From: Microbacterium telephonicum
GTDB taxonomy: Bacteria; Actinomycetota; Actinomycetes; Actinomycetales; Microbacteriaceae
DNA length: 64,000 nucleotides
Assembly (NCBI RefSeq): GCF_003651225.1
Contig: NZ_RCDB01000003.1
Coordinates: 251,259-315,258, forward strand
Reading direction: 5' to 3'
Made by a program: the position numbers and the translations under genes
Part shown: piece after piece, positions 25,799 through 43,991 of the stretch
Position numbering within the stretch: the first letter of the stretch is position 1
Layout of the letters: each line of letters begins with the position of its first letter
Notes under the pieces: generated by a model
Databases searched by the model: none
What the model saw: the letters and a program-made list of their open reading frames with translations, nothing else
What the model was told of the DNA's origin: nothing

Positions 25799-26557
25799 AT
25801 GATCCGCGCCGACAGCCGCCCCCGACGCCGTGTCGCGTGGGCCGTGGGCGCCCTCGTCACGGCGCTCGCGCTGACGGTGACCGCGCTCGTCTGGCGCCCG
25901 TGGGCGGTGCCGGCCACGACGGTCGCCGCGGGTGACGGCGAGGCGGTCGGAACCGGGATCCCCGCGGCCCTCGACGTGCCGGACGATGCGACGGTGCTCG
26001 TCTTCGGCGACTCCTGGACGTACGGCTCGGCGGCATCCGACCCCACCCTCGGCTACGCCTACGTGCTGGGCGAGCTGACCGGCTGGACGACCGTCGTCGA
26101 CGGCGTGCGCGGGTCCGGCTACCTGAAACCGGGCCTGGACGGCCCCGACTTCGGTACGCGCATCGCCGCCCTCGACCCCGCCCTGGATCCCGACCTCGTC
26201 ATCATCCAGGGGTCGATCAACGACCGTCGCCTGCCCGCCGACGGATACGCCGCCGCCGTGGACGCGGCCTGGGACCGCCTGGCGGCGACCTACCCCGATG
26301 CCCGCATCGTCGTGCTGGGGCCTGCGCCGCAGGTGCTGCCGGTCGAGACGGCCACGGCGCGCATCGACCGCGACCTGTCGGGCCTGGCCGCCGAGCGCGG
26401 CTGGTGGTACATCTCCCCCGTGCGGGAGGGGTGGATCACCGAGGCCAACTACCTCGACGTCATCGACACCGGGGTCGGCCGCGACCACCCGTCGACGGCC
26501 GGGCACCGCTACCTCGCCGAGCGGTTGGCCGCGGCGTTGGCGCGTCTGTCGCGGTGA
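25799..26557 (+). CDS. Secreted or membrane-anchored SGNH/GDSL hydrolase
   Basis: A 252-aa protein. Residues 8-33 hold a basic patch and a hydrophobic helix (signal anchor). The SGNH blocks are FGDSW (69-73, nucleophile Ser72), GVRGSGY, QGSINDRR and RDHPSTAGHRYL with the Asp-His pair. It is probably an esterase acting on cell-surface glycan or lipid. Last host gene before the tRNA/prophage boundary; divergent from the transglutaminase gene. Confidence 0.8.
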   Translation: MIRADSRPRRRVAWAVGALVTALALTVTALVWRPWAVPATTVAAGDGEAVGTGIPAALDVPDDATVLVFGDSWTYGSAASDPTLGYAYVLGELTGWTTVVDGVRGSGYLKPGLDGPDFGTRIAALDPALDPDLVIIQGSINDRRLPADGYAAAVDAAWDRLAATYPDARIVVLGPAPQVLPVETATARIDRDLSGLAAERGWWYISPVREGWITEANYLDVIDTGVGRDHPSTAGHRYLAERLAAALARLSR

Positions 26558-26573
26558 TACCCTCGATCGGTAC

Positions 26574-26621
26574 GCCTCCGTAGCTCAGGGGATAGAGCGT
26601 TGGTTTCCGGTACCAAAGGTC
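26574..26621 (+). pseudogene. Truncated tRNA-Arg(CCG): 5' half only (host side of attL)
   Basis: The acceptor 5' strand GCCTCCG (26574-26580), D-arm, anticodon stem TTGGT/ACCAA (26600-26604 / 26612-26616) with loop TTCCGGT (anticodon CCG at 26607-26609) and variable loop AGGTC are intact. No T-arm (TTCGA) or 3' acceptor strand follows. A TACCCT box at 26558-26563, 10 nt upstream, is a plausible native tRNA promoter. Read as the host gene cut by prophage integration. A decayed tandem duplicate is the alternative. Confidence 0.75.
26600..26621. other. Probable attL core in the anticodon arm
   Basis: Similarity to a tRNA stops right after 26621. The symmetric stem-loop TTGGT-TTCCGGT-ACCAA is the kind of site tyrosine integrases use. 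The same 10 bases TTTCCGGTAC recur in the intact tRNA at 26717-26726. The matching attR is not in the window. Confidence 0.5.
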
Positions 26622-26686
26622 ATCCTGCGGGAGAGTAGCAGTCACAACAGAATCACAGTCAGGGTGCATCCGGAAGTGCATCCTAT

Positions 26687-26759
26687 GCCTCCGTAGCTCA
26701 GTGGATAGAGCGCCAGTTTCCGGTACTGGAAGTCAGGAGTTCGACTCTCCTCGGGGGCA
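26687..26759 (+). tRNA. tRNA-Arg (anticodon CCG)
   Basis: A complete 73-nt cloverleaf: acceptor GCCTCCG / CGGGGGC (one T-G pair) with discriminator A at 26759, D-arm GCTC-AGTGGATA-GAGC, anticodon stem CCAGT/ACTGG with CCG at 26720-26722, variable AAGTC, T-arm AGGAG-TTCGACT-CTCCT. It reads CGG codons. CCA is not encoded. The 5' half matches the truncated copy with one mismatch in 26 bases, but the anticodon stem differs, so it is not that gene repaired. It abuts the first phage gene. Confidence 0.93.
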
Positions 26760-26760
26760 C

Positions 26761-27156
26761 TCAGGCAGATTTTTGCCGCTCGTACCATGCGCGGTACTGC
26801 GCACGCGCGCACGTAATGCATACACGTTGCGTGTAGCCGTCGCGCCGCCTCTTTAGCCTCAGGTTGTCGCCTGACAGCGGGTGACCCTTGGCACAGTGCG
26901 TGATCGCCGCCATGGCTCTTCGTGTGTTCTCACCGCGCGTGACAATCTCCATGTGCTCGATGTTGACGCATAGTCGCTGACGACACAGGTGGTCGACGGT
27001 CATGTTGGCTGGGATCGGCCCCTGCTCGCGCTCCCATGCTGCTCGATGAGCGAGCATCGAACCCCCGTGGCCGTTGCTGGTCGATCCGTATCCGTTCGTC
27101 TGGATGGCTCCCTCCCAGATGACGCAGGGAGTGGTGGCTTCTCTCGCGGTGTTCAT
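26761..27156 (-). CDS. HNH endonuclease (HNH_3 type, small)
   Basis: A 131-aa protein with the HNH core MTVDHLCRQRLCVNIEHMEIVTRGEN, preceded by a GGSMLAHRAAWEREQG stretch and followed by a CxxC (CITC) C-terminal zinc knuckle. This arrangement is common in actinophage homing or packaging-associated endonucleases. The ATG at 27156 lies inside a 13-mer repeat and 6 nt after a TACGAT box, so the mRNA is probably leaderless; a longer reading from 27216 crosses the promoter and is rejected. Divergent from the plus-strand cassette. Confidence 0.7.
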   Translation of the reverse strand: MNTAREATTPCVIWEGAIQTNGYGSTSNGHGGSMLAHRAAWEREQGPIPANMTVDHLCRQRLCVNIEHMEIVTRGENTRRAMAAITHCAKGHPLSGDNLRLKRRRDGYTQRVCITCARAQYRAWYERQKSA

Positions 27157-27209
27157 ACACCTATCGTATCGCGGTGTATGAACACCCGCTAGGATGGGTG
27201 TATGAACAC
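27148..27209. promoter_or_regulatory. Divergent, apparently leaderless promoter pair with three copies of a 13-mer
   Basis: GGTGTATGAACAC occurs at 27173-27185 and 27197-27209 on the plus strand and inverted at 27149-27161, centres about 24 bp apart. On the minus strand TACGAT (27168-27163), six bases and ATG (27156) come in series; on the plus strand TAGGAT (27190-27195), six bases and ATG (27202) do the same. So the outer copies each carry a -10-spaced start codon, and the middle copy looks like operator only. Confidence 0.6.
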
Positions 27210-27234
27210 TAGCCACACGAACAGGAGCGAATGA
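27202..27234 (+). CDS. Possible 10-aa leader peptide
   Basis: MNTSHTNRSE followed by TGA. The ATG sits 6 nt after TAGGAT, and the stop overlaps the next start in an ATGA junction, so it could couple translation of the 85-aa gene to a leaderless mRNA. Too short for certainty. Confidence 0.3.
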   Translation: MNTSHTNRSE

Positions 27235-27488
27235 TGGATGAAGTAGACGAGCGGATCGTCGCTTGGGAAGCGATCGCAGGACACCCGTTCTTCAAGCCCG
27301 CATACCACGGCGACGGCGCATTACTCCCGCGGATCATCGCCCGGTTGGACGCGATGTGCGAGCCCGCCGAGTCTGCCCTTGCTACCGAGGCGGAGGAACC
27401 TGCCGAGCATCGCGTGGCGCGGGCATTCGTCAACGGATACCGCGAGGGCATGGAGCGCGCGACCCGAGGGCGGCTCGACACATGGTGA
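27231..27488 (+). CDS. Hypothetical phage protein, 85 aa
   Basis: An acidic, helical protein (WEAIAGHPFFKPAYHGDGALLPRIIARLD, then an Ala/Glu-rich linker and VARAFVNGYREGMERATRG). No family recognised. AGGAGCG lies 3-9 nt before ATG 27231. First full gene of the plus-strand left-end cassette, followed by the HIT gene. Confidence 0.6.
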   Translation: MMDEVDERIVAWEAIAGHPFFKPAYHGDGALLPRIIARLDAMCEPAESALATEAEEPAEHRVARAFVNGYREGMERATRGRLDTW

Positions 27489-27494
27489 CCGAAT

Positions 27495-27511
27495 CGGGTG
27501 ATCCGTCATGA
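27495..27511 (+). repeat. GDPS-type gene-junction sequence, copy 1
   Basis: CGGGTGATCCGTCATGA. It combines an anti-SD match (GGTGATC), a stop and the next ATG in one unit. Here the upstream reading is only a mini-ORF (VTESGDPS) overlapping the end of the 85-aa gene. Other copies are at 27890-27906, 51397-51413 and 51263-51279. Confidence 0.7.
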
Positions 27512-27906
27512 GCGTCGGAACCGGGGTGATCGACCCGGAGCCGGGCTGTGTGTTCTGTGAGATCGCGGCGGGCACCGCACCGGCCAAGCACCGCGGCGAC
27601 TGGATCTCGACGATCATCTTCGAGCCACTGAACCCGGTCACCCCTGGGCACTTGCTCGTCGCACCGAGGATGCACGTCCGAGATGCGGTAGAGCATGCGG
27701 CGGTCGCGGCCTCCACGATGTCGGATGCCGCCTCGTGTGTGAACATGCTGCGGCGGATCGACCCTGCGTACAAGAGTGTCAATCTCATCACCAGCGTCGG
27801 CGCACCGGCAACGCAGACGGTGTTCCATCTGCACATCCACATCGTGCCTCGGCGCGCAGGAGACAACCTGATGCTGCCGTGGTCAGAACCGGGTGATCCG
27901 TCATGA
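27508..27906 (+). CDS. HIT-family (histidine triad) nucleotide hydrolase/transferase
   Basis: A 132-aa protein. CVFCEI at residues 14-19 is the HIT N-terminal signature, NPVTPGHLLVAPRMHV (42-57) the hinge, and HLHIHIVP (107-114) the histidine triad with the nucleophilic His. HIT proteins act on AMP-lysine, dinucleoside polyphosphates or adenylylated substrates. The C-terminus is shorter and more variable than in Hint proteins. Its presence in a prophage, in an early-like plus-strand cassette, is unusual. Starts at junction copy 1 and ends in junction copy 2. Confidence 0.85.
   Translation: MSVGTGVIDPEPGCVFCEIAAGTAPAKHRGDWISTIIFEPLNPVTPGHLLVAPRMHVRDAVEHAAVAASTMSDAASCVNMLRRIDPAYKSVNLITSVGAPATQTVFHLHIHIVPRRAGDNLMLPWSEPGDPS
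27890..27906 (+). repeat. GDPS-type gene-junction sequence, copy 2
   Basis: The same 17 bases as at 27495-27511. It encodes the HIT C-terminus GDPS, its TGA, and the ATG of the following zinc protein. Confidence 0.7.
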
Positions 27907-28073
27907 AGGCGGGAGCGATGCCGGGAGGCGACGCCGTCTGCCACGGTCACCACGTCTGGGACGAGGACGAATGCCTGCGGTGCGGGCTGATCGACCTCGG
28001 TTACCACGGGAAGCAGCACCTATGTCCACAACCGAGCGAACCGGAGTCCGAAATGGTTGGGGAGGCAACATGA
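27903..28073 (+). CDS. Small zinc-ribbon-like protein, 56 aa
   Basis: M-K-A-G-A-M, then C-H-G-H-H near residue 17, CLRC near 29 and H-x-C-P near 41: four or more Cys/His pairs spaced for one zinc. It overlaps the HIT stop (ATGA) and the following RHH start (ATGA). Function unknown; small zinc proteins of this type recur in this prophage. Confidence 0.55.
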   Translation: MKAGAMPGGDAVCHGHHVWDEDECLRCGLIDLGYHGKQHLCPQPSEPESEMVGEAT

Positions 28074-28255
28074 ACACTGGCACACTTGAGCCCATGCCCA
28101 ACAAGCCACGGACCAAGATCCGCGGCGTACGCGTCCCCGACGAACTATGGGAAGACGCCCAGAAGATCGCGAAAGCCCGCGGTGAAGACGTCAGCGCCGA
28201 AATCCGCGCCGGCCTCGAACGGTACGTAAAGCGTAACCGCAACTTGCTCGACTAG
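28070..28255 (+). CDS. Ribbon-helix-helix (Arc/CopG-like) DNA-binding protein
   Basis: A 61-aa protein. KIRGVRVPDELWEDAQKIAK then EDVSAEIRAGLERYV gives one beta strand and two helices of an RHH fold. GGGGAGGCA precedes the ATG. As the only regulator in the plus-strand cassette it is a candidate to bind the three 13-mers at 27149-27209; this is inferred from position only. Confidence 0.65.
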   Translation: MNTGTLEPMPNKPRTKIRGVRVPDELWEDAQKIAKARGEDVSAEIRAGLERYVKRNRNLLD

Positions 28256-28259
28256 CGAG

Positions 28260-28388
28260 GTGTGCGGCACGGTGATGTATCCGGTGGACGGTGGCCTCGA
28301 GTGCCGGTGGTGTGGTCACCGCGAGGATGTGCCGTGGGTGGAGCGGCCGCGGGGCGGGGATGACCTGCCCGGGATCAGCGGGGGTTGA
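28260..28388 (+). CDS. Very small CxxC protein, 42 aa (tentative)
   Basis: VCGTVMYPVDGGLECRWCGHRED: one CxxCxH motif and a GCGAGG ribosome site before GTG. ATG at 28275 is an alternative start. Its 3' end overlaps the opposite-strand ORF 28316-28597, so one of the two may be spurious. Confidence 0.35.
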   Translation: MCGTVMYPVDGGLECRWCGHREDVPWVERPRGGDDLPGISGG

Positions 28389-28597
28389 CGTCGGGATAGC
28401 CGCGGAACGGTGCCGTCCGCGAGGGTGTCGAGGGTGGTCGCCCAGCCGATGAGCACGCCGCGGAACTCGCACCGGTAGCGGAGTTCGTTGCCGGCGACGC
28501 GGCGCAGCTCGACGCGGCCGTATTCGCCCGCCTGGTCGCGCATCGACCACACCGCCGGCTGGACCTCGACGGCGGCGAGGATCGGGCGCCATGTCAC
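28316..28597 (-). CDS. Hypothetical phage protein, 93 aa (tentative)
   Basis: Reads MTWRPILAAVEVQPAVWSM and then a beta-rich segment (GRVELRRVAGNELRYRCEFRG) before a basic, low-complexity end. No family recognised. GTG start with a poor ribosome site. It opposes the plus-strand genes on both sides and partly overlaps the 42-aa ORF. Confidence 0.4.
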   Translation of the reverse strand: MTWRPILAAVEVQPAVWSMRDQAGEYGRVELRRVAGNELRYRCEFRGVLIGWATTLDTLADGTVPRLSRRQPPLIPGRSSPPRGRSTHGTSSR

Positions 28598-28630
28598 CGG
28601 GACAGTGTGCGCCGGACCCCGGACACGACG

Positions 28631-28678
28631 AAAGCCCCCTCGGCCGGCATCCGAAGATGCAAGCCAAGGGGGCGTTTC
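28631..28678. terminator. Bidirectional intrinsic terminator
   Basis: AAAGCCCCCT (28631-28640) pairs with AGGGGGC (28667-28673) followed by GTTTCG. The stem GCCCCCT/AGGGGGC is perfect, with A- and T-rich flanks on either side. It separates the RHH cassette from the acyltransferase block. Confidence 0.7.
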
Positions 28679-28788
28679 GTTGCAAGTTCACCGCGACGGT
28701 GCAACCCGAGTTGTCGGATGTAAACCGGTCTTCAGAGTGAACTATCGGTGAAGTAGTGCTCAGGTGAGCGGGGGTCTAAGATTCCCCC

Positions 28789-28941
28789 GTGGGGGACCGA
28801 GAGCCGATCTATCGACTTGTGGGGTGGTTCGCACATCGGCGAACGCTCTGTGTCGTCTGCCGGAAGGAACTCCGCGTCGACGCGCGCTACTGCTCCGATG
28901 CATGTGCTCGGGTCGACGCGGAGTTCCAGGCCCACGGCTGA
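28789..28941 (+). CDS. Small zinc-finger-like protein, 50 aa
   Basis: VGDREPIYRLVGWFAHRRT, then CVVC and CSDAC spaced by 13 residues, a two-CxxC/CxxxC zinc site like those of small phage and actinobacterial ribbon proteins. The GTG at 28789 lies 6 nt after TAAGAT, so it may be leaderless. The start region is also the 3' arm of a hairpin (CGGGGG ... CCCCCG, 28769-28790). It precedes the acyltransferase gene. Confidence 0.5.
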   Translation: MGDREPIYRLVGWFAHRRTLCVVCRKELRVDARYCSDACARVDAEFQAHG

Positions 28942-28959
28942 CCTATATGCTCCTGTCCT

Positions 28960-30072
28960 ATGAGCGACGTGGAGGGTTGGCGTCTCGGCCGGCATGCCAG
29001 CCTGGACGGAATACGAGCAGTGGCGGTCGGGCTGGTTGTCCTAGCTCACAGCGGCCTGCCACTTGTCGGGAACGGCGGTGGCGTCGGTGTCGGGATCTTC
29101 TTCACGCTAAGTGGGTTCCTCATCACCAGCCTCCTGCTGGACGAGCGGGCAGAGTATGGATCGATCCGCCTCGGCTCGTTCTGGAAGAGGCGCTTGCTTC
29201 GGTTGGTCCCAGCCATGGTCGCGTGCGTCGTCTTCGCCATCTTCGTCGACCTGATCGTGTGGCATGGGGTATTCGATTGGTCACTCATCGTCGGGACCTT
29301 GACCTACACCTCGAATTGGGTCATCGCCGCGAACGCGTTCGATCAGCGAACCACGCTGGGCCACACCTGGTCCCTGGCGGTCGAGGAGCAGTTCTACTTG
29401 ATCTGGCCTCTCATCCTGATCGCGCTTCTTCGCTGGATGCCTCGAAGCCGGATCGTTAAGAGCCTCGCGGTCGTCTCACTGCTCGTTGTCGTCTTGCGGG
29501 TGCTGCTCTGGGACGGCGGCGAGGGAATAGGGCGCATCTACGTCGGAACAGACACCCGCGCAGACGGTCTCCTGATTGGCGCTGCGGTGGCGTTGTGGCT
29601 ATACCAGCGCAAGCCGGTCGTCTATCCGAAGTGGGTGCAGTGGGCATTCTTCGTCGCCATGGGGGCCTGCTGCCTGATCCCGGGCCCCGTGAATAGCTTC
29701 ATAATGCCGACGGTTGTCGGGCTCGCTACAGCCGGGCTGATCCTCGCGGTCGTGCAGGGACGCGGCTTCTGGCCGCTCGAGTTGTCGTGGGTCCGGTGGA
29801 TTGGAAAGCGGTCCTACGGGATCTATCTCTATGCCTCGCCCCTCCACCGACTCATTCTTGAGACGCTTGGCGACTCGATCCTCTGGTGGGTGCTGATCCA
29901 GATCCCGGGGACCGCCATCCTGGCGTGGGCCTCGTACCGCTGGATTGAGTCGCCATTCCTGCGCCTCAAGAACCGCGACCCGCGGTCGCACGCTGGGACG
30001 CTCGCGGCGGAGAGCTCGCAGAGCAAGCTCCCCGCCCAGCGTGTCAGGCGCCTTCGCTCGGCGACTGAGTAG
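28960..30072 (+). CDS. Membrane acyltransferase 3 family protein (surface glycan O-acyltransferase)
   Basis: A 370-aa protein with about ten transmembrane helices. SLDGIRAVAVGLVVLAHSG (14-32) carries the catalytic His30, GIFFTLSGFLITSLLL follows, and WSLAVEEQFYLIWP is the second family block. Such enzymes acetylate cell-wall or exopolysaccharide sugars. In a lysogen it could alter the surface and block superinfection (lysogenic conversion). There is no C-terminal SGNH domain. Its 3' end overlaps by 29 nt the opposite-strand gene behind the fibre. Codon use looks less GC-biased than that of its neighbours, suggesting recent acquisition. Confidence 0.85.
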   Translation: MSDVEGWRLGRHASLDGIRAVAVGLVVLAHSGLPLVGNGGGVGVGIFFTLSGFLITSLLLDERAEYGSIRLGSFWKRRLLRLVPAMVACVVFAIFVDLIVWHGVFDWSLIVGTLTYTSNWVIAANAFDQRTTLGHTWSLAVEEQFYLIWPLILIALLRWMPRSRIVKSLAVVSLLVVVLRVLLWDGGEGIGRIYVGTDTRADGLLIGAAVALWLYQRKPVVYPKWVQWAFFVAMGACCLIPGPVNSFIMPTVVGLATAGLILAVVQGRGFWPLELSWVRWIGKRSYGIYLYASPLHRLILETLGDSILWWVLIQIPGTAILAWASYRWIESPFLRLKNRDPRSHAGTLAAESSQSKLPAQRVRRLRSATE

Positions 30073-30172
30073 CGCCCAGCAGCGCTTGCAGCTCTGCGAC
30101 GGTGGTGCGGAGCGCCTCAATCTCGCGCTGCCGATCTGCGAGCAACAGGATTAGCGCGGTGTCGTTGTTCAT
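30044..30172 (-). CDS. Small coiled-coil protein, 42 aa
   Basis: MNNDTALILLLADRQREIEA, then LRTTVAELQALLGA: two to three heptads of a coiled coil. Its ATG overlaps the fibre stop (TGATG), so it is translationally coupled to the fibre gene. Too short for family assignment; it could trimerise or chaperone the fibre. Confidence 0.55.
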   Translation of the reverse strand: MNNDTALILLLADRQREIEALRTTVAELQALLGATQSPSEGA

Positions 30173-32124
30173 CACGCCTCCGTCGCCAGCCACGTCGTCA
30201 CACCGGACGGAAACTTCACGCCAAGGCGCGTCTTCCCCGCCCCGTTGTCGATTACGAACAGGCGCGCCTTGTCCGCGCCGGGGTTAGCCGGCTCTCCATC
30301 CATCTCGGAAATCTCCATGTACCTCTGTCCCATATTCACCTGGTTCGGCCCCGACGTGGCCGTGTCAGCCCCGAGCGCGACCGCGTTCGCGTGGGAGGCG
30401 TTCGCCCGCGCGCCGAGCGCCGTCGCGCTGGCGTCTCCCGCGATCGCGCGGTAGCCGACGGCGGTGATGTAGTCCACCTGTGTCGCCGACGCCTGACCCG
30501 ACTGGAACCCGACCGCTGTCTGCCCCTGCGCCGTGGTGGTCGCGTTCGCGGTCACGTTGTTAGGCGCGTAGCCAGCGCCCGATCCCATGTAGGCGTTGTT
30601 CTGCCCGGTCGTGAGCGCCGCACCCGCCTCGTGGCCGATGGCGGTGTCGTTACTCGCGGTGGTCAGTTGACGCAGCGCACGCTGTCCCGCTGAGACGTTC
30701 TGCCCGCCCGTGGTGAGCGCGGCCTGCGCGTAGTGACCTACCGCAACGTTATTTGTGCCCGCGGTGAGCCCATCGTGCGCGTACGCACCCACGGAGGTGT
30801 TCTGCGCGCCCGTGGTCGTGGCACGCTGGGCCGACGATCCGACCGCGGTGTTCCCGGCGCCTGTGGTGAGGTTGAACTGTGCGCGGTCACCGAACGCGGA
30901 GTTGTCGATGCCGGTGGCCTGTTCCTGCGCGCGGTTGCCGAACGCTACCGAGTTCAGAGCGATCTTCGCTGACGTGAGGATCGCGGCCAGCGCATCCGCG
31001 ACGGTCGCGCCGGGGCCTTTCAAGTCCCACTGGCCCGCCTGCGCCTTCGCGCGCGCGTTCTGCTGCACGGACACCTGCGAGCCGATCGACCCGTTCGTGT
31101 ACTTCACGGGGCCGGTGTAGATCGGGACCGCGCCCAGTGCGCGCGTCTTCGCGATGATCGCGTCGACGTTCGCGGTCGCCGTCGCGGCGCTGGTGACGCC
31201 GTCCGCGTCATTCACGCCCGGCTCGTTGAAGATGACGTAGTCCGCGTCGGCGGGCACGTCCGTGTCGAACCGTGCGAGCAGCATCGCGGACGTGTTGCCG
31301 CCGACGCCGACGTTCACGGACACAGCGGTCGGGAAGAGCGCCGCGACGACCTGCCCAAACACGACGGACGACTGCTCCCCCCACGAGTTCGCGAGCAACA
31401 CGATCTTGTCGCCCGCCTTCGGGTTGACGATCGGCGCGCCCTTCGCGTCGGTGCGGGTCAGCACCCACCGCCAGAACAGCTGGTAGCCGCCCGTCGTCGT
31501 CAGGTGCCCCGCCGAAGACCACAGCGACACGACCGCAGACGCCGCGGGGGCAGCGGCGGGAAGTGCGGGAGTGATCGTCAGATCGGTCCCGGCGATCGCG
31601 GTCACCTTGTGCTGCGACGCGTTCGCTGCGCCAGGGTTCACCACCAGGATCGTGTTCACGACGATGCCCGTCGCGGAGGCCACCGGCAGCGTCGTCGCGC
31701 CGGACGCCGCGCCGGGCGTGGTGGTCGCGACGTTCGCCTGCCCTGTGGCGAACCCGCCGAGGGTGAAGAACCCGTCGTAGCTGTTCAGGAAGTGCGGCCG
31801 GGGTCCGCCATCGAACGCCACATTGGTGTTCTTTACGTCCTGCGTGAACTGGGCGCTGTCGTCAGCGAACACGGCCGACATGGCGGCGTCGTTCGCGGTC
31901 GTCGCGCCGGCGATCACGGTCGCAGCGGACAACACCGCCGACACCTCGGCGGGGTCCATCGACGACCAGCCGAGACCGGACCACGATGTGATCCCGTCGC
32001 CGACCTTCATCCGCTTCGTGGTCGTGTCGACCGCAGGCTCGCCGACAGCGAGGACCGGGTTCACCGACGCCCAGTTCGCGGACGTGTCCTGCCTGACCCG
32101 CAGCTGCACAATCTCAGTCGCCAT
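30172..32124 (-). CDS. Tail fibre / receptor-binding protein with SGNH-like and YadA-like domains
   Basis: A 650-aa protein in four parts. Residues 1-53 (LRVRQDTSANWASVNPVLA ... GDGITSWSGLGW) resemble the N-terminal attachment domain of tropism-determinant-type fibres. About 105-240 is beta-rich. About 240-370 looks like an SGNH hydrolase (LLANSWGEQ at 244-251, GVGGNTS at 273-279, NEPGVND at 300-306), though the final Asp-His pair was not found. About 388-600 is a run of 12-14-residue repeats (N-x-A/S-x-G-x-x-A) like the YadA head beta-roll. The end is LATEA. Last large gene of the tail block. Confidence 0.8.
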   Translation of the reverse strand: MATEIVQLRVRQDTSANWASVNPVLAVGEPAVDTTTKRMKVGDGITSWSGLGWSSMDPAEVSAVLSAATVIAGATTANDAAMSAVFADDSAQFTQDVKNTNVAFDGGPRPHFLNSYDGFFTLGGFATGQANVATTTPGAASGATTLPVASATGIVVNTILVVNPGAANASQHKVTAIAGTDLTITPALPAAAPAASAVVSLWSSAGHLTTTGGYQLFWRWVLTRTDAKGAPIVNPKAGDKIVLLANSWGEQSSVVFGQVVAALFPTAVSVNVGVGGNTSAMLLARFDTDVPADADYVIFNEPGVNDADGVTSAATATANVDAIIAKTRALGAVPIYTGPVKYTNGSIGSQVSVQQNARAKAQAGQWDLKGPGATVADALAAILTSAKIALNSVAFGNRAQEQATGIDNSAFGDRAQFNLTTGAGNTAVGSSAQRATTTGAQNTSVGAYAHDGLTAGTNNVAVGHYAQAALTTGGQNVSAGQRALRQLTTASNDTAIGHEAGAALTTGQNNAYMGSGAGYAPNNVTANATTTAQGQTAVGFQSGQASATQVDYITAVGYRAIAGDASATALGARANASHANAVALGADTATSGPNQVNMGQRYMEISEMDGEPANPGADKARLFVIDNGAGKTRLGVKFPSGVTTWLATEA

Positions 32125-32156
32125 GCGGCGCTCCTCTCAAGGGGTGGGTCTGACGG

Positions 32157-32420
32157 TCACGCTTCGGGGGCGTAGTCGCCGGGGATGCCGCGGGCGAGGA
32201 TGCTGAAGTACGACGCGGCGCCCGCGATCAGCGGCGACACGAGCGCGACACCCCATGTCACTGCGGTCGCGACGAGCGGGACCTCGCCCGTCACGACGGC
32301 GAGGACCGCGGTCGACGTGATGCCGCCCGCAAGGGACGTACCGTACGCCTGCGCGGTCGTGCGGATGAAGCCGCGCTTGGCGGCGAGCTGCGCGTCCGCG
32401 GGGATGAGCTTGTCGTTCAT
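32157..32420 (-). CDS. Holin-like membrane protein, 87 aa
   Basis: Residues 1-20 are charged (NDKLIPADAQLAAKRGF), followed by two hydrophobic helices (about 24-45 and 52-75) and a short polar tail. Size, topology and place beside the endolysin fit a class II holin. AAGGAGACATC precedes the ATG, which overlaps the upstream stop (ATGA). Confidence 0.65.
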   Translation of the reverse strand: MNDKLIPADAQLAAKRGFIRTTAQAYGTSLAGGITSTAVLAVVTGEVPLVATAVTWGVALVSPLIAGAASYFSILARGIPGDYAPEA

Positions 32421-32812
32421 GATGTCTCCTTCGGGGTGAGCCAAGCGGTCGGGATGGTGTCTTCCTCGAGCTCGGCGATGTCGTACGTGTTGAACCGGGG
32501 GTACGGGGCGGCGGGCCACTGAGCGACGAACGACTTGATGATGCGGAGCGCCGCATGCTTCACGCGTTCCGCGTTCGTCGCCTGCGTGCGGAGCGCGTCG
32601 ATCTCCTGCTCCTGGTCTTCGAGTTTCTGGTCCTGCTCGTCGATTCGGGCATCAAGCCGCTCGATCTCCTTCGTGAGACGCCCGTCGATCCTGGCGTCGA
32701 GGGATGCCCGCGAGTCCGCTCGCGTCTTCCCACGTGTGCCGGCGAGGGTGGCGAGACCGCCGAGGACGAGCGCGATCGCACCGACGAGCGCGACAACGAC
32801 CTCCTGGCTCAT
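32417..32812 (-). CDS. Membrane-anchored coiled-coil protein (DUF2746-like)
   Basis: A 131-aa protein: one N-terminal helix (VVVALVGAIALVLGGLATLAG), then a long coiled coil (LTKEIERLDARIDEQDQKLE...) and a short C-terminal segment. Actinophage lysis cassettes often carry such a protein next to the holin; a role as second holin or spanin-like factor is inferred. The DUF2746 label is tentative. Confidence 0.55.
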   Translation of the reverse strand: MSQEVVVALVGAIALVLGGLATLAGTRGKTRADSRASLDARIDGRLTKEIERLDARIDEQDQKLEDQEQEIDALRTQATNAERVKHAALRIIKSFVAQWPAAPYPRFNTYDIAELEEDTIPTAWLTPKETS

Positions 32813-33258
32813 GCGACGATCACCCGCCGCTCCTTCACTTCCTCGCCGAGAAGGTTCAGCCGAAAGAACGCGAGCGGGAGGCCGAAGGTCAGCATCCCCA
32901 CGACGAACAGGTTCGACCCGGCCGACTCTGACAGCAGCAGGATCGTCGTCACGTACGCGGAGATCAGCCCGACGAGGACCACCTTCCCCGCTATCTCGAA
33001 CCGCCACAGCGCGGGAAACGCGACGCCGAGAAGGCAGACGGTCGCGACCACGGCCATGGCCGTCCCGAGCGCGTCGACCAGCGATGCGGAGAACAGGACG
33101 TTCAGCAACGGGGACCCGTTCGAGACGGCCTGCACGCCGCAGAAGATCGCGATCAGGTCGTAGATCGGGAGCCACACCCGCTTCAGGTTCCGGTACTTCC
33201 ACTCGTCGGGCGATATCGCACCGCGCGCCCAGATCGACGCCTGCCACAGGGCGCGCAT
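32809..33258 (-). CDS. Lysis-cassette membrane protein, 149 aa
   Basis: About four hydrophobic helices after a polar start (RALWQASIWARGAISPDEWKY). It overlaps the endolysin stop (TGATG; a GTG three bases earlier is an alternative start) and the next gene (ATGA). Possibly the true holin, or an accessory to it. No family recognised. Confidence 0.55.
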   Translation of the reverse strand: MRALWQASIWARGAISPDEWKYRNLKRVWLPIYDLIAIFCGVQAVSNGSPLLNVLFSASLVDALGTAMAVVATVCLLGVAFPALWRFEIAGKVVLVGLISAYVTTILLLSESAGSNLFVVGMLTFGLPLAFFRLNLLGEEVKERRVIVA

Positions 33259-34211
33259 CACGAGCCGGCCTGGACGATGAACTTCAGCGCCTTCACGCCC
33301 TCGATGCCGCCCTGCTTCGCCGCGTCCGCGATCTGCGCGAGCTGCTCCGCCGACAACACCACCGCGGGCACGTCGACAGCCGCGGCGATCTTCTTCGCGT
33401 CCTCGTCGGACAGTTCAAGGACCGCCTGCACCTGCGCTTCCTTCGGATCCGGGGACAGCGCCCCATGCACCGACTCGAGGTAGCTCAGCTCCACGTCCGT
33501 CAGCACCCGCTGGATGCTGTTGCCGGTGAGGCCGAGTGCCATCAGCAGGTTCCGGTGCTCACCCGACGGGATGATGTACTTCCGGCCACCGGGACCCATC
33601 AGGATCAGCGCGCCACCCCACTGGTACGTCTTGTACGGGCGGGACTCCCACTCGATCTTCTGGAACAGCGCTTCCTGCGCAGCGTCGTCGTACATGTCGT
33701 CCTCCTCGGGCGGGTCGAAAGGTCGGGACGTGTCGCCAGCGGCGGCGCCCGTTGTCACGGTGCGGGTGAAGTCGAAGTAGTTAGCCGGATCCACCCGGCG
33801 CCCCGTCTTCTTGTCCCACGTCTCGAGGTGCAGGTGCGCCGCATCGACGAGGCCGGTCGCGCCGATGAGCCCGAGCAGTGTCCCTTCGACCGTCTCCGCA
33901 CCCACAGCTGGCGACGGCGAGCCGAGCGGGCGGTGCATGTATCGGGCGATGAAGTCGCCGTAGTCGACGTCGATGCTGTTGCCGGCGAGGCTGTTGGGTC
34001 GGTCGATCGTCGGAGTCACACCCGCGGGGCCGACACCGGAACGGACGACGACGCCCGGACCGGACGCGCGGATCACGGAGCCGGCGACAACACCCTGCGA
34101 CCGCGACGAGAAGTCATCCCCCTTGTGTGGCGACGCGAACGTGTAGAACTTCCCGTCGACCGCCCCGTAGGGAAGACTGATCGTCGACGCCGGGAACGGG
34201 AGAGGAAGCAT
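33258..34211 (-). CDS. Endolysin with N-terminal M23 metallopeptidase domain
   Basis: A 317-aa protein. The LytM/M23 zinc ligands are His29 and Asp33 (HKGDDF) and His128 (HLHLE at 126-130, with His126 catalytic). The domain spans about 10-150. The C-terminal part (165-317), with YKTYQWGGALILMGPGGRKYIIPSG, likely binds the cell wall or caps the protein. No signal peptide, so export needs the holin. It lies between tail genes and the membrane proteins. Confidence 0.85.
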   Translation of the reverse strand: MLPLPFPASTISLPYGAVDGKFYTFASPHKGDDFSSRSQGVVAGSVIRASGPGVVVRSGVGPAGVTPTIDRPNSLAGNSIDVDYGDFIARYMHRPLGSPSPAVGAETVEGTLLGLIGATGLVDAAHLHLETWDKKTGRRVDPANYFDFTRTVTTGAAAGDTSRPFDPPEEDDMYDDAAQEALFQKIEWESRPYKTYQWGGALILMGPGGRKYIIPSGEHRNLLMALGLTGNSIQRVLTDVELSYLESVHGALSPDPKEAQVQAVLELSDEDAKKIAAAVDVPAVVLSAEQLAQIADAAKQGGIEGVKALKFIVQAGS

Positions 34212-34220
34212 CGCCGCCTC

Positions 34221-34700
34221 CTACGCGTACGCGACCCAGTCGAACTGGACCGGGTTGCTCGCGAACGCCGACCCGCCGTTGTAGACCACGAACTGGATCT
34301 GCGTGTCGTTCACCGCGTTCACAACGATCTTGCGGGTCGCGACTGCGGTACCTCCGGATCGGTCCGTCGCGACGACCTGTGATGGCGTGACCCCCAACCC
34401 GTGCGTCACGGTTGCCGTTCCTGTGCCCGACGTCGCCGCGTTGAAGGTGCCGCGGGCGACCGCGTTGAGTCGAACCCAGGAACCCGAGACCCGCTGATAC
34501 AGCCGACCAGTGTCCGTCTCCGAGAAGAACCAACCGTCCACCGACTCGTCAGTCGTCAACGCCTGACGCTCGACGGCGGTGCCCTTCAGGAGACCACCGA
34601 TCTTCTTCGCGAACGTGACAGCGGCCTGCAGGTCAGCGACGGTCTGCGTCGGGGTGGGCGTGTATGTCGGTTCACCGGTCGGTGCGAGTGTGTGCCCCAT
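34221..34700 (-). CDS. Minor tail / tail-tip protein, 159 aa
   Basis: A helical N-terminus (VADLQAAVTFAKKIGGLLKG), a WFFSETDTGRLYQRVSGSWV strand pair and a C-terminal beta-sandwich (GLGVTPSQVVATDRSGG ... NPVQFDWVAYA) resembling H-type lectin tail-tip domains. It lies between the lysin and the next tail gene. Receptor contact is a reasonable guess. Confidence 0.6.
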   Translation of the reverse strand: MGHTLAPTGEPTYTPTPTQTVADLQAAVTFAKKIGGLLKGTAVERQALTTDESVDGWFFSETDTGRLYQRVSGSWVRLNAVARGTFNAATSGTGTATVTHGLGVTPSQVVATDRSGGTAVATRKIVVNAVNDTQIQFVVYNGGSAFASNPVQFDWVAYA

Positions 34701-34703
34701 GGG

Positions 34704-35603
34704 CTACCCCTTCCAAGAGATCTTCAGAGCGCCGGACATTCCGTCTTGCGCGAGGGACGCGAACTTGTTGTAGCCACCGTTCGGGAACCCGAAGCCGAGC
34801 GCGGAACCGCCGCCCTTGAGTGCGTCGAACATGACCGCGGCAAACGGGGGCGTCTGCCACCCGTTCCCGCCCGGGTGCCATGCGCCGAGACCCGTGAAGG
34901 ACGGCACGCCGCTCTTGCTCGCCGAGCTGTGCAGCGCCCAGTTCGGTGCGGCGCCCTGCTTCTGGATGCGGTTGATGAACACCTGCAGTGACTCGAACGT
35001 CGCGCCGGCGGGGATCGTGTCGCGCACCTGCGAGCCGAAGAACCATGCACCGTCGTTGTTGTCAGCGGCCCAAACCTGTGCCTGCCACCAGTCGCCGTTC
35101 GAGTGTGTCGTTCCGGCATCGACCGCACGGAACTCGGCCACCTGCACGCGCCCTCCGCCACCGATCGGACCGGGCGGTTGTGCCGGCTCATCCGGAGAGG
35201 TGGAAAGCTTCGAGCACCACGGGCCCGACGACCACGAGATCCCGACCGTGTCACCGGACGTTGGCGGGGTGTCGCCGGCGAACGGCATCTGGAAGTCGCC
35301 GAAATCGGTCGTAACCGTCACGAGCGGGTCCGCAACTGTCGACACGACCCCCACACCAGGTCGGGGGCCGACAGGGCCAGTCATGAACACGACACGGTCG
35401 GAACCGTTCGCGATCGTCTCCACCCACACCGTGTCGTTCACCACCGGCACGAACCCGCCGGATGCCCACCTCGCCTGGAACCGTTCGTCGCCCATGTCGA
35501 CGAGCGCGAATCCATCCTCATGTCCGACATACCGGCCCGCGCGCCTCGTGTACGACGTCTTCGCGTCGAGGAGGCGGAGGATCGCGTCAGCATCAAGCGG
35601 CAT
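34704..35603 (-). CDS. Minor tail protein, 299 aa
   Basis: N-terminal OB-like segment (GFALVDMGDERFQARWASGG), a proline linker (DEPAQPPGPIGGGG, about 140-153), and a C-terminal domain with WWQAQVWAADNNDGAWFFGSQ and many aromatics. The true start is ATG 35603, with GGAGGT 5 nt before it; the longer reading lies in the upstream gene. It overlaps that gene by 11 nt. Probably tail-tip adhesin or baseplate accessory. Confidence 0.65.
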   Translation of the reverse strand: MPLDADAILRLLDAKTSYTRRAGRYVGHEDGFALVDMGDERFQARWASGGFVPVVNDTVWVETIANGSDRVVFMTGPVGPRPGVGVVSTVADPLVTVTTDFGDFQMPFAGDTPPTSGDTVGISWSSGPWCSKLSTSPDEPAQPPGPIGGGGRVQVAEFRAVDAGTTHSNGDWWQAQVWAADNNDGAWFFGSQVRDTIPAGATFESLQVFINRIQKQGAAPNWALHSSASKSGVPSFTGLGAWHPGGNGWQTPPFAAVMFDALKGGGSALGFGFPNGGYNKFASLAQDGMSGALKISWKG

Positions 35604-36681
35604 CGGGAACCTCCACGACCAGTTGAGTCGTCGCCGTGTCATGAGTCACCGACGCGACGCGCACGACACCGTCTTCGAAGGTGAGGACGTCGCCGAGTTC
35701 GCGGAGCGGGTTGAACGGTTCCACGATCTGACGGGTGACGCCACGGATACGAGACACGCGCTGCAACAGCCCGCGCGCGTACGCGTCAACCTGCGACTGC
35801 GTGTAGAGCTGGTCAGACGCGTACCGGTACACCGACACCCCGAACGGAGAAGCCGTGCCATCCACGTTCGAGACGCGGAGGAACCCCTCCGTCACGTCGG
35901 CGACACCATAGATCGGGTCGCCGCCTGCCGTTTTCCCCTCGACGACGACTCGGTTGTACGTCTTCGACGAGTCCATGCTGATCGGCGCGTCGACCACTCC
36001 GCGCACCGCGCCCACGGGTCCGGGCCACGTCTTCTGGCGGGCGGTCAGCGTCCCCGACGCGTCAACCTGCGGCCACGCGTCCAGCAGATCGAACAGCTTC
36101 GACAGTTGCGCGGCCTTCTCCCCCTCGTAGACGGTGCCGCCCGCGAGAGTCACATCCGACGCGTTACGGATCACTGGCATCCCCGACACAGCCTGGATCT
36201 CCTGCCATGCCGACGTCGACCGCGGCGCGGTCGGGAACGGGAACTCGTCCCGCGCAACCCGCATGAGAGGGTCCTTCAGGTTCAGCCCGAACGACTGCCC
36301 CACCCTGATCGGCCGCCCATCGAACAGGATCTCCCTGTCCGTAGCGTCCGGGACCGACTCGATCACGAACCGCCCCATCGGGACCCGCTCCGAGAACACC
36401 CCCGCCCCGAGGATCACATCAATCTGCAACTCTGCGCCGAACGGGGAGAACCAGTCGCCGAGCACCTTCGGGACCATCGAAGTCCCGAAGTCGTCCGACC
36501 AGACCACCCGCACCTGCGCGTCGCCGGCGACGAACTGGCCCGCGTCCCACGACACCCTCGGCCGCTCGATCGGGATGTTCGCGAGACGCCGCTCCCGGTC
36601 GTACATGAGGTCAGCGACCCACGTGACCTGCGGGACACCATCTGCGACAAGCTGCCGGACAGTGTCGGACGCTGCACGCAT
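35593..36681 (-). CDS. Minor tail protein (tail-tip hub type), 362 aa
   Basis: VTWVADLMYDRERRLANIPIERPRVSWDAGQF opens the protein and FNPLRELGDVLTFEDGVVRV closes it, a pattern of actinophage minor tail proteins next to the distal tail gene. TAATG overlap with the gene upstream. By order it corresponds to the tail-associated hub protein. Confidence 0.65.
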   Translation of the reverse strand: MRAASDTVRQLVADGVPQVTWVADLMYDRERRLANIPIERPRVSWDAGQFVAGDAQVRVVWSDDFGTSMVPKVLGDWFSPFGAELQIDVILGAGVFSERVPMGRFVIESVPDATDREILFDGRPIRVGQSFGLNLKDPLMRVARDEFPFPTAPRSTSAWQEIQAVSGMPVIRNASDVTLAGGTVYEGEKAAQLSKLFDLLDAWPQVDASGTLTARQKTWPGPVGAVRGVVDAPISMDSSKTYNRVVVEGKTAGGDPIYGVADVTEGFLRVSNVDGTASPFGVSVYRYASDQLYTQSQVDAYARGLLQRVSRIRGVTRQIVEPFNPLRELGDVLTFEDGVVRVASVTHDTATTQLVVEVPDAA

Positions 36682-37643
36682 TACGCCCCCCCAGCAGCAC
36701 CCGCGAGGGCCCAGTCCGTGTCCTGATCGTCGTACGAGGGGTACGCGTCGTCGCGTGCGTCATACGACGCATACGAGACATCGAGGTCGTCGTACGACAG
36801 TGGCGAAATCACCAGACCTGGGGCAGGTGGCGAGACCTCGGTGACGGTCGCCTGGAACCGTGACCATTCGTCGCCGTACCGGTAGTCGATGTCGACCTCG
36901 TTGAGCGTGGCGATGTGCGCGAACAGGCGCCGCGGGATGAACCCCGCGGGAGCGCGGATCAGCCACACAGGCACCTGCGGGGCATCATCGGTCCCGAGCG
37001 TCGCCCACACGGCGGCGGACTCGGCGGCATCCGTGACACCGAAGTCGATGTCCACATTCGTGAGCCCTTGACGGGGACCTGCGCCGACGACTACCGGACG
37101 CGTCGCGCCCTCGACCGTGACGAGCTCGCCGACCGCGGTCCGCGAGTACGACGGCCAGGCTCCCTCGAGATTGATGACCTGCGCGTTCAGGTTCGGGTTC
37201 AGCGGCTGCTGGATGACGACCGCGTTCTCGTCACCATCCCACGGCAATGACACCGTCCCGAGAGACACGCGCCCGAGAGATGTGTCGCCATCGAAGCATT
37301 CGAGCTCGTACGTGGTGAGCGCGTTCAGCCCGGCCTCGAGGTCGAGGAACCCGCCCGCTCCGGTGAAGAACCGCGACACGACACCGCGAACCTTCCCAGT
37401 GCGGCCCTCAGAACGCCACCAAAGGGTGACGCTGTCTGTCCCGGCGGGGAGGTCGACCGACGCTGTCGCCGCCGATCCGCCCGAGTAGATCGTCGGGCCG
37501 GTGCCGCCCGCCGACCCGCCCGACAGCGTGTCCGGGCCGGTGGCTGGCGCGGTGCCACCGGAGAACGCGGTGAACGGGTCGAACCCGATCTCGACACGCG
37601 GCACCGGGAAGAAGTCCGTCCGAGGGGTGAGGGTCACGATCAT
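36681..37643 (-). CDS. Minor tail protein (distal-tail type), 320 aa
   Basis: A beta-rich protein with a Gly/Ser-rich loop (SGGTAPATGPDTLSGGSAGG, about 28-60), VSLPWDGDENAVVIQQPLNP and a Tyr/Asp-rich end with four short SYD/YASYD motifs. Its position directly after the tape measure fits a Dit-like protein. Its stop overlaps the next gene by one base and its start overlaps the tape measure stop. Confidence 0.6.
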   Translation of the reverse strand: MIVTLTPRTDFFPVPRVEIGFDPFTAFSGGTAPATGPDTLSGGSAGGTGPTIYSGGSAATASVDLPAGTDSVTLWWRSEGRTGKVRGVVSRFFTGAGGFLDLEAGLNALTTYELECFDGDTSLGRVSLGTVSLPWDGDENAVVIQQPLNPNLNAQVINLEGAWPSYSRTAVGELVTVEGATRPVVVGAGPRQGLTNVDIDFGVTDAAESAAVWATLGTDDAPQVPVWLIRAPAGFIPRRLFAHIATLNEVDIDYRYGDEWSRFQATVTEVSPPAPGLVISPLSYDDLDVSYASYDARDDAYPSYDDQDTDWALAGAAGGA

Positions 37644-39370
37644 GCCGAAACCGCCCCTCCCGACAGGCGCACCGCGGACCGGTACTCTGACACGGCCATC
37701 TGCCGCTTCACGACGCCCGTCAAGGGAGTGCCCTCGACTTCAATCGTGATCCGGTCACCCGGCCGCAGGCCGCCGGCGTTCGCGATGTTCGGGTTTACCG
37801 ACGCTCCCGCAGGCAGGTTCAGCAGCTCGGGGCCACGCTCACCAACGATCACGGACCCCGCGCGGGTGATCGTGCCACCGGTCGCGAGCATCGGGATCTT
37901 CGGGATCGCAATGTCCAGACCGATCAGCGACCCCGCACCGCCGACGAGCACGTTGACACCGTCGATGACACCGTTGATGAGGCGGATGATCGTGTTGATC
38001 GCGGACCGAATCCCGGAAATGATGCCGTCCCAGATCCCGCCGATGATCCGCCCGATCGAACCGAACACGTTCGCGATGACGTCACCGATGCCCTTCCAGA
38101 CACCGTTCCACCAGTTCACGAGCCCCGAGATCACCCCGACGAGCCATGTCTGCACACTGTTCCACGCGTACTGGATCGCGAACACGATCCCGTTCCACAC
38201 ACTCGAGATCCACTGACCCACCGCAGACCAGACACCGTTCCACCAACCCACGAACCCATCGATTACACCCGTGATCCACGAGATGAACCCGGCCCACACG
38301 TCGGTGAGGAACTTCACCACCGTGTCCCAGTTCTGGACGAGGAGGATGATCGCGCCGATGAGGAGGCCGATGCCGACTATGATGATGCCGAGGGGGTTAG
38401 CGGTCATGGCGGCGTTGAGCGCCCACTGTGCGATGGCCCATGCGGCTACGGCGCCCGCGACGATCGCGATGCCGGCGGCGAGAGGACCGATCCAAGAGAT
38501 ATTGTCCTGGATGAACGTGACGAACCCGGCCAGCCCATTCACGATGTCGGTGAGGACGGGTTTGATTGTGGTGAACGCGTCCGACAGTCCGCCGACGATC
38601 GCGGCCTGCAGGTTCCCGACCGCGCCTTCCATCGTGGAGACGGAGGTGGCGGCTTCCTGAGCTACCGGCTCGGTACCGAGCTGCAGCAGCGCCGCGTTGA
38701 ACTCGTCCGCGGTGATCTCGCCCTCTTGCATCGCTTCGCGGAAGTTGCCAGTGAACGCCCCAGCCTCGGAGAGCGCCGTCTGCAGCCGACCGGACGCACC
38801 GGGGATCGCGTCGGCGAGCTGGTTCCAGTTCTCCGTCGTGAGTTTCCCCGCTCCGGCGGTCTGGGTGAGCATCATCGCGACCGACGAGAACGTGTCCTGG
38901 TTGCCGCCCGCGACCGCGTTCAGGTTTCCGGCGGCTTCGGTCAGCTCGGTGTAGTTGCTGATCCCGTTCGCCGCGAGCTGCGCGGTCGTGTTCTGAATCG
39001 TCGACAGGTCGTACACCGTCGCGTCCGCGTACGCGCGAGACTTCGACATGGCCGAATCGATCGCGGACGTGTCGAGACCAGCGAACGTCAACGTCTGCGC
39101 GAACTTGTCAGTCGCATCCGACGCCGCGACCGCTTCCCCGACGAGGTCACCGATCGCACCGGCGGCGATGTTCGCGACGGAAGCGAAGATGCCACCGACC
39201 GCACCTGCCACGGCAGCCTGCTTCGTGCTGATGCCCTTACCGAGCCCGTCACCCAGCTTCGCGCCGGCACCCTCCGCGTCAGCCTCACCCAGCGCAGACT
39301 CGATGTCCTTCTTGACGCCAGGCATCTTCGTGTACAGGGCCACATATGCGGACGCGATCTCGTTAGCCAC
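37640..39370 (-). CDS. Tape measure protein
   Basis: A 576-aa protein. Helical N-terminus (ASAYVALYTKMPGVKKDIE), a Gly/Ala-rich membrane-active stretch (about 45-80), then hydrophobic helices (295-365) and Trp-rich repeats of the type WWNGVWxxxGxWI (about 385-460), ending with GERGPELLNLPAGA. Tape measure proteins set tail length; at about 1.5 angstroms per residue this implies a tail near 85-90 nm. GTG start with GGAGG upstream. Confidence 0.9.
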   Translation of the reverse strand: MANEIASAYVALYTKMPGVKKDIESALGEADAEGAGAKLGDGLGKGISTKQAAVAGAVGGIFASVANIAAGAIGDLVGEAVAASDATDKFAQTLTFAGLDTSAIDSAMSKSRAYADATVYDLSTIQNTTAQLAANGISNYTELTEAAGNLNAVAGGNQDTFSSVAMMLTQTAGAGKLTTENWNQLADAIPGASGRLQTALSEAGAFTGNFREAMQEGEITADEFNAALLQLGTEPVAQEAATSVSTMEGAVGNLQAAIVGGLSDAFTTIKPVLTDIVNGLAGFVTFIQDNISWIGPLAAGIAIVAGAVAAWAIAQWALNAAMTANPLGIIIVGIGLLIGAIILLVQNWDTVVKFLTDVWAGFISWITGVIDGFVGWWNGVWSAVGQWISSVWNGIVFAIQYAWNSVQTWLVGVISGLVNWWNGVWKGIGDVIANVFGSIGRIIGGIWDGIISGIRSAINTIIRLINGVIDGVNVLVGGAGSLIGLDIAIPKIPMLATGGTITRAGSVIVGERGPELLNLPAGASVNPNIANAGGLRPGDRITIEVEGTPLTGVVKRQMAVSEYRSAVRLSGGAVSA

Positions 39371-39405
39371 TGGCCCTCCGTTCGGCGCGCGGTAGGCTCA
39401 GCGCC

Positions 39406-39750
39406 ATGTCAGAGACAGTCACGGCCAACGGCCGAAACGGTCAGGTCACGTTCGACGGGAAGACCGTCACGATCGCCCGCGAGGGGTTCGCCGCGCGGGC
39501 ATCGCATGGACGCGGGGAGAAGTCGATCCCGATCCGGCAGATCGCGGCCGTGCAGTTCAAGCCGAACGCGCTCACGACGGTCGGTTTCATCCAGTTCACG
39601 GTCCCGGGCGAGCAGTCGTCTCGTACGTCGAAGGGTGGCCGGACGATGGATGCCGCGAAGGACGAGAACGCGGTCCTTTTCGCGAAGAAGGCGGAACCGG
39701 AGTTCATCGCGTTGCGTGACGCGGTCCGTGCGGCTATCGCAGAGCTTTAG
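39406..39750 (+). CDS. DUF4429-type protein on the opposite strand (moron)
   Basis: A 114-aa protein: VTFDGKTVTIAREGF, KSIPIRQIAAVQFKPN and GFIQFTVPGE form the PH-like DUF4429 beta-sandwich, followed by a C-terminal helix (EPEFIALRDAVRAAI). It is the only plus-strand gene in the structural block and has a TAGGCT box ending 8 nt before its ATG, consistent with its own leaderless promoter in the lysogen. Its 3' end overlaps the chaperone gene by 17 nt. Function unknown. Confidence 0.75.
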   Translation: MSETVTANGRNGQVTFDGKTVTIAREGFAARASHGRGEKSIPIRQIAAVQFKPNALTTVGFIQFTVPGEQSSRTSKGGRTMDAAKDENAVLFAKKAEPEFIALRDAVRAAIAEL

Positions 39751-40437: not shown

Positions 40438-40513
40438 AGGTTTCTCCGTTTCGTCTCCGTGGGTGTGTGACCGTGGGTGGGGCGACGGAGGGCACCCCAC
40501 CCACGGGACCTGG

Positions 40514-41077: not shown

Positions 41078-41125
41078 GACAGCTCCTTCTGAGGGGGTTG
41101 CCCGGGCTCCGGGCGTACTAGATGA

Positions 41126-41164
41126 CCCGTCACGGTTGTGGCGGGTGGAGAGGCGTGCGCCTCT
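41126..41164. terminator. Two adjacent hairpins upstream of the major tail gene
   Basis: ACCCGTCAC / GTGGCGGGT (about 41126-41147, one T-G pair) and the perfect AGAGGCG-TG-CGCCTCT (41149-41164). They may stabilise or separate the highly expressed tail-tube mRNA. Confidence 0.45.
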
Positions 41165-41167
41165 GGT

Positions 41168-42660: not shown

Positions 42661-42688
42661 GACCTGACCTTTCTCAGAGGGGATGCGA

Positions 42689-43933: not shown

Positions 43934-43960
43934 GGTTCCTCCTTGGATTGATTGATGTGA

Positions 43961-43991
43961 CCCGTGAGAGTTCGTGGCGAACTTCTACGGG
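43961..43991. terminator. Hairpin between scaffold and capsid genes
   Basis: CCCGTGAGAGTTCG (43961-43974) and CGAACTTCTACGGG (43978-43991), a 14-bp stem with two mismatches and a 3-nt loop. Placed before the capsid ribosome site, so it may tune processing or protect the capsid message. Confidence 0.45.

Follow-up and report, generated by a model that had tools for sequence, protein, structure and literature searches.

A Microbacterium prophage that splits a host tRNA-Arg(CCG) gene and carries an intact copy: a probable case of tRNA-dependent lysogeny

Background

What supplies a tRNA once a prophage has integrated within its gene, and from which promoter is that supply read? These questions are raised by a locus of Microbacterium telephonicum, in a window of 64,000 bp (the whole stretch of DNA analysed here, G000:C3:251259-315258, where G000 is this genome), in which a broken tRNA-Arg(CCG) gene is followed by an intact one. 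In classical integration, exemplified by the phages Boilgate and Hestia, a 3' half carried by the phage rebuilds the gene at attL. Tyrosine integrases, an attB that overlaps a host tRNA gene with no second copy, cores too short to give a functional tRNA at either junction, and a phage tRNA that is complete, matches the broken one in isotype and is needed for lysogeny (mutants form clear plaques) are instead features of tRNA-dependent lysogeny, which was defined in 2024 (PMC10865867). Table 2 of that paper gives cases at Lys-TTT, Ile2-CAT and Leu-CAA, the cores measuring 8-17 bp in those that leave the tRNA unrestored, and its text describes the evolutionary relation to classical tRNA-rebuilding integration as not clear. 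Sinorhizobium prophages are described as rebuilding their tRNAs, with the other, tRNA-dependent mechanism credited to prophages like Lo5R7ANS (PMC12429752).

We consider it highly probable that the present locus is a further case of tRNA-dependent lysogeny, in which the insertion of a 37.5-kb prophage has broken the host tRNA-Arg(CCG) gene and has brought, 65 bp in from the left prophage end, the sole intact copy found in the assembly, which would sustain the lysogen and is predicted to be read from the host promoter at attL.

The split gene and the prophage

Integration has interrupted the host tRNA-Arg(CCG) gene at its anticodon arm, inside a core of 22 bp. The 5' part of the gene (26574..26621, forward strand) runs into the attL core (TTGGTTTCCGGTACCAAAGGTC, 26600..26621, forward strand), which spans the anticodon arm and variable loop, and an identical core stands at G000:C3:315381-315402, starting 123 bp beyond the window end. 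Directly after this attR core comes gcaggttcgattcctgtcgggggca, the 3' half of a host-type tRNA-Arg(CCG), whose T-arm differs from that of the phage-borne tRNA. Joined, the two pieces form a 74-nt tRNA-Arg(CCG) of normal fold (ARAGORN); unjoined, neither is called as a tRNA by ARAGORN, and they score 25.3 (attL) and 27.4 bits (attR), under the 29-bit cut-off of the tRNA model. Since the 22-bp repeat is exact and both of its outer flanks complete one tRNA gene, a chance match is ruled out. The host gene overlaps attB, the core, though 22 bp long, is too short for a functional tRNA at either junction, and by both ARAGORN and the tRNA model the gene is rebuilt at neither, contrary to classical 3'-half restoration. 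Comparison of junctions across the prophages described below suggests that the crossover falls at the anticodon, roughly inside TTCCGGTACCA.

Much of this had been anticipated in a preliminary description of the window, which held that the host fragment keeps a TACCCT hexamer (located at 26558-26563, upstream of the 5' part), that it ends after the variable loop (at 26621), and that the intact copy 65 bp downstream has a CCAGT/ACTGG anticodon stem in place of TTGGT/ACCAA, all of which is borne out. Its view that the gene is not repaired by a 3' half carried in attP is likewise upheld, as attR holds the host-type half and not a 3' half of the CCAGT type. The attR that it expected to the right of position 64,000 was found with its core and T-arm, whereas the end reads GGGGGCA in place of the CGGRGGC foreseen, and the core ends at GGTC.

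The prophage measures 37,523 bp between the cores and ends at G000:C3:315402, its portion in the window being 26600..64000. Eight of ten proteins tested from between the cores have PHROG matches (including integrase, terminase, portal, major head protein, tape measure, tail proteins and DNA methyltransferase), the remaining two being without a match, and the terminase shares 73.5% identity with its counterpart in Microbacterium phage vB_MoxS-R1. The last hundred residues of the major head protein (42689-43933, reverse strand) match tail-protein families, as if a decoration domain were fused to it. The integrase (60974..62242, reverse strand; PHROG integrase, 4.7e-63) is of the tyrosine family and a relative of the Fionnbharth integrase family (35.6% identity to the Fionnbharth enzyme), and it groups by similarity with the published integrases of tRNA-dependent lysogeny. 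The attP region matched a single record of the phage collection, the tRNA-Arg gene of a 192-kb Microbacterium phage. An IMG/VR record (behind L082) was discarded as an independent case, since it proved to be this prophage again (100% across a compared stretch of 3 kb).

A replacement tRNA and its place in the tRNA supply

The complete phage-borne tRNA-Arg(CCG), of the same isotype as the broken gene, lies at 26687..26760 on the forward strand (ARAGORN; 64.8 bits to the tRNA model), beyond a 65-bp spacer of phage origin (26622..26686, forward strand). Across G000 the tRNA family model gives 48 matches, 46 above the cut-off and two below it, the latter being the attL and attR pieces. Among the 46 genes the phage copy is the sole Arg-CCG (ARAGORN; assembly rated 100% complete), although a second could have been missed in an assembly of 6 contigs. 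The other arginine tRNA genes have the anticodons ACG (one), CCT (two) and TCT (one), none of which reads CGG, a codon that accounts for 56 of 388 arginine codons in ten host ORFs of the window. These ORFs were chosen by length and GC3, and seven of the ten have Pfam matches, including ATP synthase, Rho and arginyl-tRNA synthetase. With CGG unread by the other anticodons and a single Arg-CCG gene present, the phage gene is presumably essential, and the gene complement suggests that survival of the lysogen is likely to depend on it. The two tRNA-Arg(CCT) genes (L038, L042) belong to a genome in which nearly every other anticodon is single-copy, and an arginyl-tRNA synthetase gene (23073-24740, reverse strand) lies about 1.8 kb from the split gene.

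Phage and host tRNA-Arg(CCG) differ in the anticodon stem, variable loop and T-arm. Among the host genes of 40 relatives examined, the stem is TTGG/CCAAA in 32, CCGG/CCGTA in 6 and TTGG/CCAGA in 2, and the CCAGT stem is found in none; the closest cellular match to the phage tRNA among 299 family genomes drawn, at 88%, is from two genomes of another genus, with the stem CCGGT. One idea is that the altered stem spares the phage tRNA from self-integration, yet the phage tRNA and the core have GTTTCCGGTAC (11 bp) in common, which, with published cores as short as 8 bp, counts against it.

Related prophages at the same gene

Relatives of the integrase (E<=1e-40) occur in 26 of 366 same-genus genomes, G000 counted. 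Twenty integrase neighbourhoods were compared, seven of which are at tRNA-Arg(CCG); together with G000 and the viral contig G367 these give nine typed prophages. In seven of the nine (G255, G260, G237, G142, G250, G259 and G367) a 3' half supplied by the phage restores the tRNA, less certainly so in G259, the ends of which are on separate contigs, and in G367, a trimmed contig. Unlike G000, these are classical rebuilders at attL, yet they have in common with it the target gene, related integrases (45-81% identity) and a crossover at the anticodon arm. The other two, G000 and G238, carry a whole gene without rebuilding: in G238 the host 5' part gives way to a spacer and then to a complete tRNA-Arg(CCG), the stem of which is quite different, with attR about 46 kb further on, and the junctions have TTCCGGTACCAA in common. 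The same host sequence stands just upstream of the tRNA in G237 and G238, which indicates that both solutions are found at much the same host locus.

A survey by pattern found the layout in 2 of 366 same-genus genomes (G000 and G238) and in one of 398 genomes drawn from the family (G000; G238 was outside the draw), figures that are lower bounds, since the pattern fixes both isotype and gap. A pattern scan of viral contigs for core, spacer and tRNA found none. A possible tenth prophage in G320 (L131), with a tRNA-Arg(CCG) near a distant integrase, was rejected as it is rebuilt at a different, diverged tRNA gene. In G068 (L117) two tRNA-Phe 3' halves (3977-4020 and 8898-8947), about 5 kb apart, lie beside an integrase relative, like stacked elements.

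In maximum-likelihood trees of 23 and of 15 rows, G255, G367 and G368 form a supported group with G000, while G238 groups with G237 and G260 (92/91 and 95/93 support). A clade of the G000 and G238 integrases is rejected (p-AU 1e-61), and whole-gene carriage consequently is likely to have arisen twice; counted on the tree, two gains suffice, against four or more changes were it ancestral in the set. The likely direction is from rebuilding to whole-gene carriage, although it is not firm, given that the outgroup Fionnbharth is tRNA-dependent, that five rows are untyped for the trait (G368 and four phages at Phe or Met sites), and that integrases and att sites may have been exchanged.

Arm-type sites and promoter

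Repeats resembling GTGnAnCC are predicted to be arm-type sites of the integrase. In G000, GTGCATCC stands at 26664..26671 and 26676..26683 (forward strand; predicted P'1 and P'2), that is at +59 and +71 from TTCCGG, and G367 has the same repeat at these offsets; a third G000 copy is found across the core, at -107. Other members have repeats of GTGTAGCC, GTGCAACC or GTGTGCCC on one or both sides, and an 8-mer count found no clear repeat of this kind in G142 and G250. The replacement tRNA starts 3 nt past the predicted P'2, and that of G238 8 nt past a GTGCCCAA. As to decay of a 3' half in place, the spacer compares with the 3' half of G367 at chance level, bar a short AGTCAGG and the arm sites (by eye). 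The likely history is that a tRNA-rebuilding ancestor gained a whole gene just outside its arm sites and then lost the 3' half.

The host tRNA-Arg(CCG) promoter appears to be kept at attL as an extended -10 element (TGATACCCT, 26555..26563, forward strand), a probable promoter on the strength of its conservation: the motif TGnTAnnnT stands at equal distance in all 40 relatives' tRNA-Arg(CCG) leaders examined, and is intact in G000. The 65-bp spacer contains no TAnnnT -10 motif, which is a weak test, as 54% of spacer shuffles are also without one. Of other tRNA genes whose 65-nt leader is complete, 21 of 29 have the motif and 8 are without it, and it occurs in 180 of 2839 65-mers sampled from the prophage. 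A scan of 26480-26860 for consensus promoters found none, though it misses the host promoter too.

With the tRNA 3 nt past the predicted arm sites and no recognisable promoter of its own, use of a captured host promoter is predicted. Transcription would begin at the host extended -10 and cross both the broken 5' part and the spacer, about 115 nt in all, and the phage tRNA would be released from the transcript by the usual processing enzymes. However, the predicted read-through RNA may misfold: in the free fold (-69.8 kcal/mol) the phage tRNA and the broken 5' part are base-paired to each other, and forcing the cloverleaf of the former costs 2.3 kcal/mol. The predicted acceptor-stem probability is 0.008 in G000 and 0.946 in G238, and values under 0.1 arise in 39 of 100 shuffled leaders for G000 and 57 of 100 for G238. 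Given the weak -10 test, a scan that misses the host promoter and the possible misfold, capture of the host promoter at attL is a prediction about equally likely to stand or to fall.

Its rival, that the phage tRNA has its own promoter in or near the spacer and lies close to the host promoter incidentally, is a serious possibility, if one with somewhat less than an even chance. Such an arrangement is described for Fionnbharth, the tRNA of which has its own strong promoter (PMC10865867), and may be present in Gordonia phage BrutonGaster, where a TAGTAT hexamer can be seen by eye 6 nt upstream of the tRNA-Lys gene. In the G238 spacer a single TAnnnT precedes the tRNA by 65 nt, and the modelled misfolding of the G000 transcript, if real, would also favour this rival, whereas the lack of the motif in the G000 spacer and the negative scan, with the reservation already given, weigh against it. 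A fuller form of promoter capture, promoter-trap lysogeny, proposes that a promoterless phage tRNA directly behind the arm sites is activated only by integration, which places the host promoter in front of it, that the recoded stem prevents this tRNA from acting as a second attachment site, and that tRNA-rebuilding phages at one gene gave rise to such a design on two or more occasions; we put it forward tentatively, as a proposal that falls just short of an even chance.

It is very improbable that the phage tRNA serves mainly lytic growth, or acts against tRNA-cutting defences, with rescue of the lysogen as a side effect. Both roles are discussed for phage tRNAs (PMC10865867), yet this is the only tRNA called by ARAGORN in the window, it has the anticodon of the broken gene and it adjoins attP, and G238 repeats the pattern of a cognate tRNA beside attP.

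The site in relatives

The joined site, used as a query, matches in all 119 same-genus genomes drawn, that is in G000, as two pieces, and in 118 of 118 others. At the 30 relative loci listed, the match covers the whole tRNA gene, which by a pattern test runs through the core in every one, and 24 of the 30 have in common an upstream flank that is the end of a GDSL-hydrolase-like ORF. In G037 the core and 3' half are identical to those of G000, the upstream flank is 80% identical, and blocks downstream match G000 from about C3:321800 onward at 72-82% identity. A 770-bp query from the right flank adjoining attR matched none of the 30 relative loci, owing to about 5.5 kb of other DNA to the right of attR. 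The flank matches on both sides in G037 show the locus to be syntenic (bar about 5.5 kb), with a single tRNA gene before the prophage. The extra DNA (G000:C3 about 315430-321800, L189), absent from G037, may represent an earlier insertion next to the tRNA gene. Displaced tRNA-Arg(CCG) 3' halves were also seen at G062:C28:93784-93829, G100:C52:808064-808111 and G011:C14:9798-9845, in genomes where an intact gene is present too, and fit, as expected, further classical insertions.

The preliminary description had preferred a complete tRNA gene brought by the phage, in which it is borne out by an attR that completes the host fragment and by relatives with one continuous gene. Its alternative, in which the host gene is the intact copy and the fragment is left over from some earlier event, would suit two adjoining pieces in the same orientation, but is rejected as extremely unlikely, since attR completes the fragment exactly, the site in relatives holds a gene of the TTGGT or CCGGT type and in none of the 40 the CCAGT type, the fragment-type gene is syntenic in G037, and both copies side by side are seen only in G238, itself the second prophage case.

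Comparison with known systems

tRNA-dependent lysogeny as a kind is already known (PMC10865867); the isotype Arg and, probably, the host genus are absent from that paper, in the main text of which neither 'Microbacterium' nor 'Arg' occurs. The 22-bp core of G000 is longer than the 8-17 bp of its published cases. The mycobacteriophage Fionnbharth (subcluster K4), as described there, resembles G000 in having an integrase of the same broad family, attB in a host tRNA gene, no rebuilding and a complete cognate phage tRNA (PMC10865867). It differs in isotype (Lys-TTT) and core (10 bp), and its tRNA gene, about 2.8 kb away from that for the integrase and on the other strand, has a promoter of its own (PMC10865867), whereas that of G000 is 65 bp from the core with no promoter recognised. 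The layout nearest to G000 is that of BrutonGaster, a case of tRNA-dependent lysogeny at tRNA-Lys-TTT with a core of 11 bp, the tRNA-Lys gene of which lies about 140 bp from ACTTTTAATC (the putative core, by eye), in the same orientation and on the side away from the integrase. Unlike G000, it has the TAGTAT hexamer and another isotype, and its integrase is 30% identical. The Lactobacillus johnsonii prophage Lj965, from another phylum, can be likened to G000 by description only, its tRNA being said not to be rebuilt and a cognate tRNA to lie in the prophage (PMC10865867).

The literature searched, with subscription literature mostly outside it, yielded no report of a tRNA-Arg case, of a Microbacterium case or of host-promoter capture, and none of the matches listed names both Microbacterium and tRNA-Arg. 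With both kinds of integration at one target, G000 nested among rebuilders, and predicted arm-site offsets as in G367, the direction of the switch between them becomes testable.

Conclusions

In the reading that we prefer, the prophage integrase would recombine at the 22-bp core and break a host tRNA-Arg(CCG) gene that is probably essential, and the phage tRNA would be charged and used in its stead. If this tRNA is essential, the host relies on its prophage for the decoding of CGG, and lysogeny would gain in stability. The layout also offers a simple candidate case in which integration and gene activation are coupled and, if the promoter trap is true, the recombination that destroys the host tRNA also activates its substitute.
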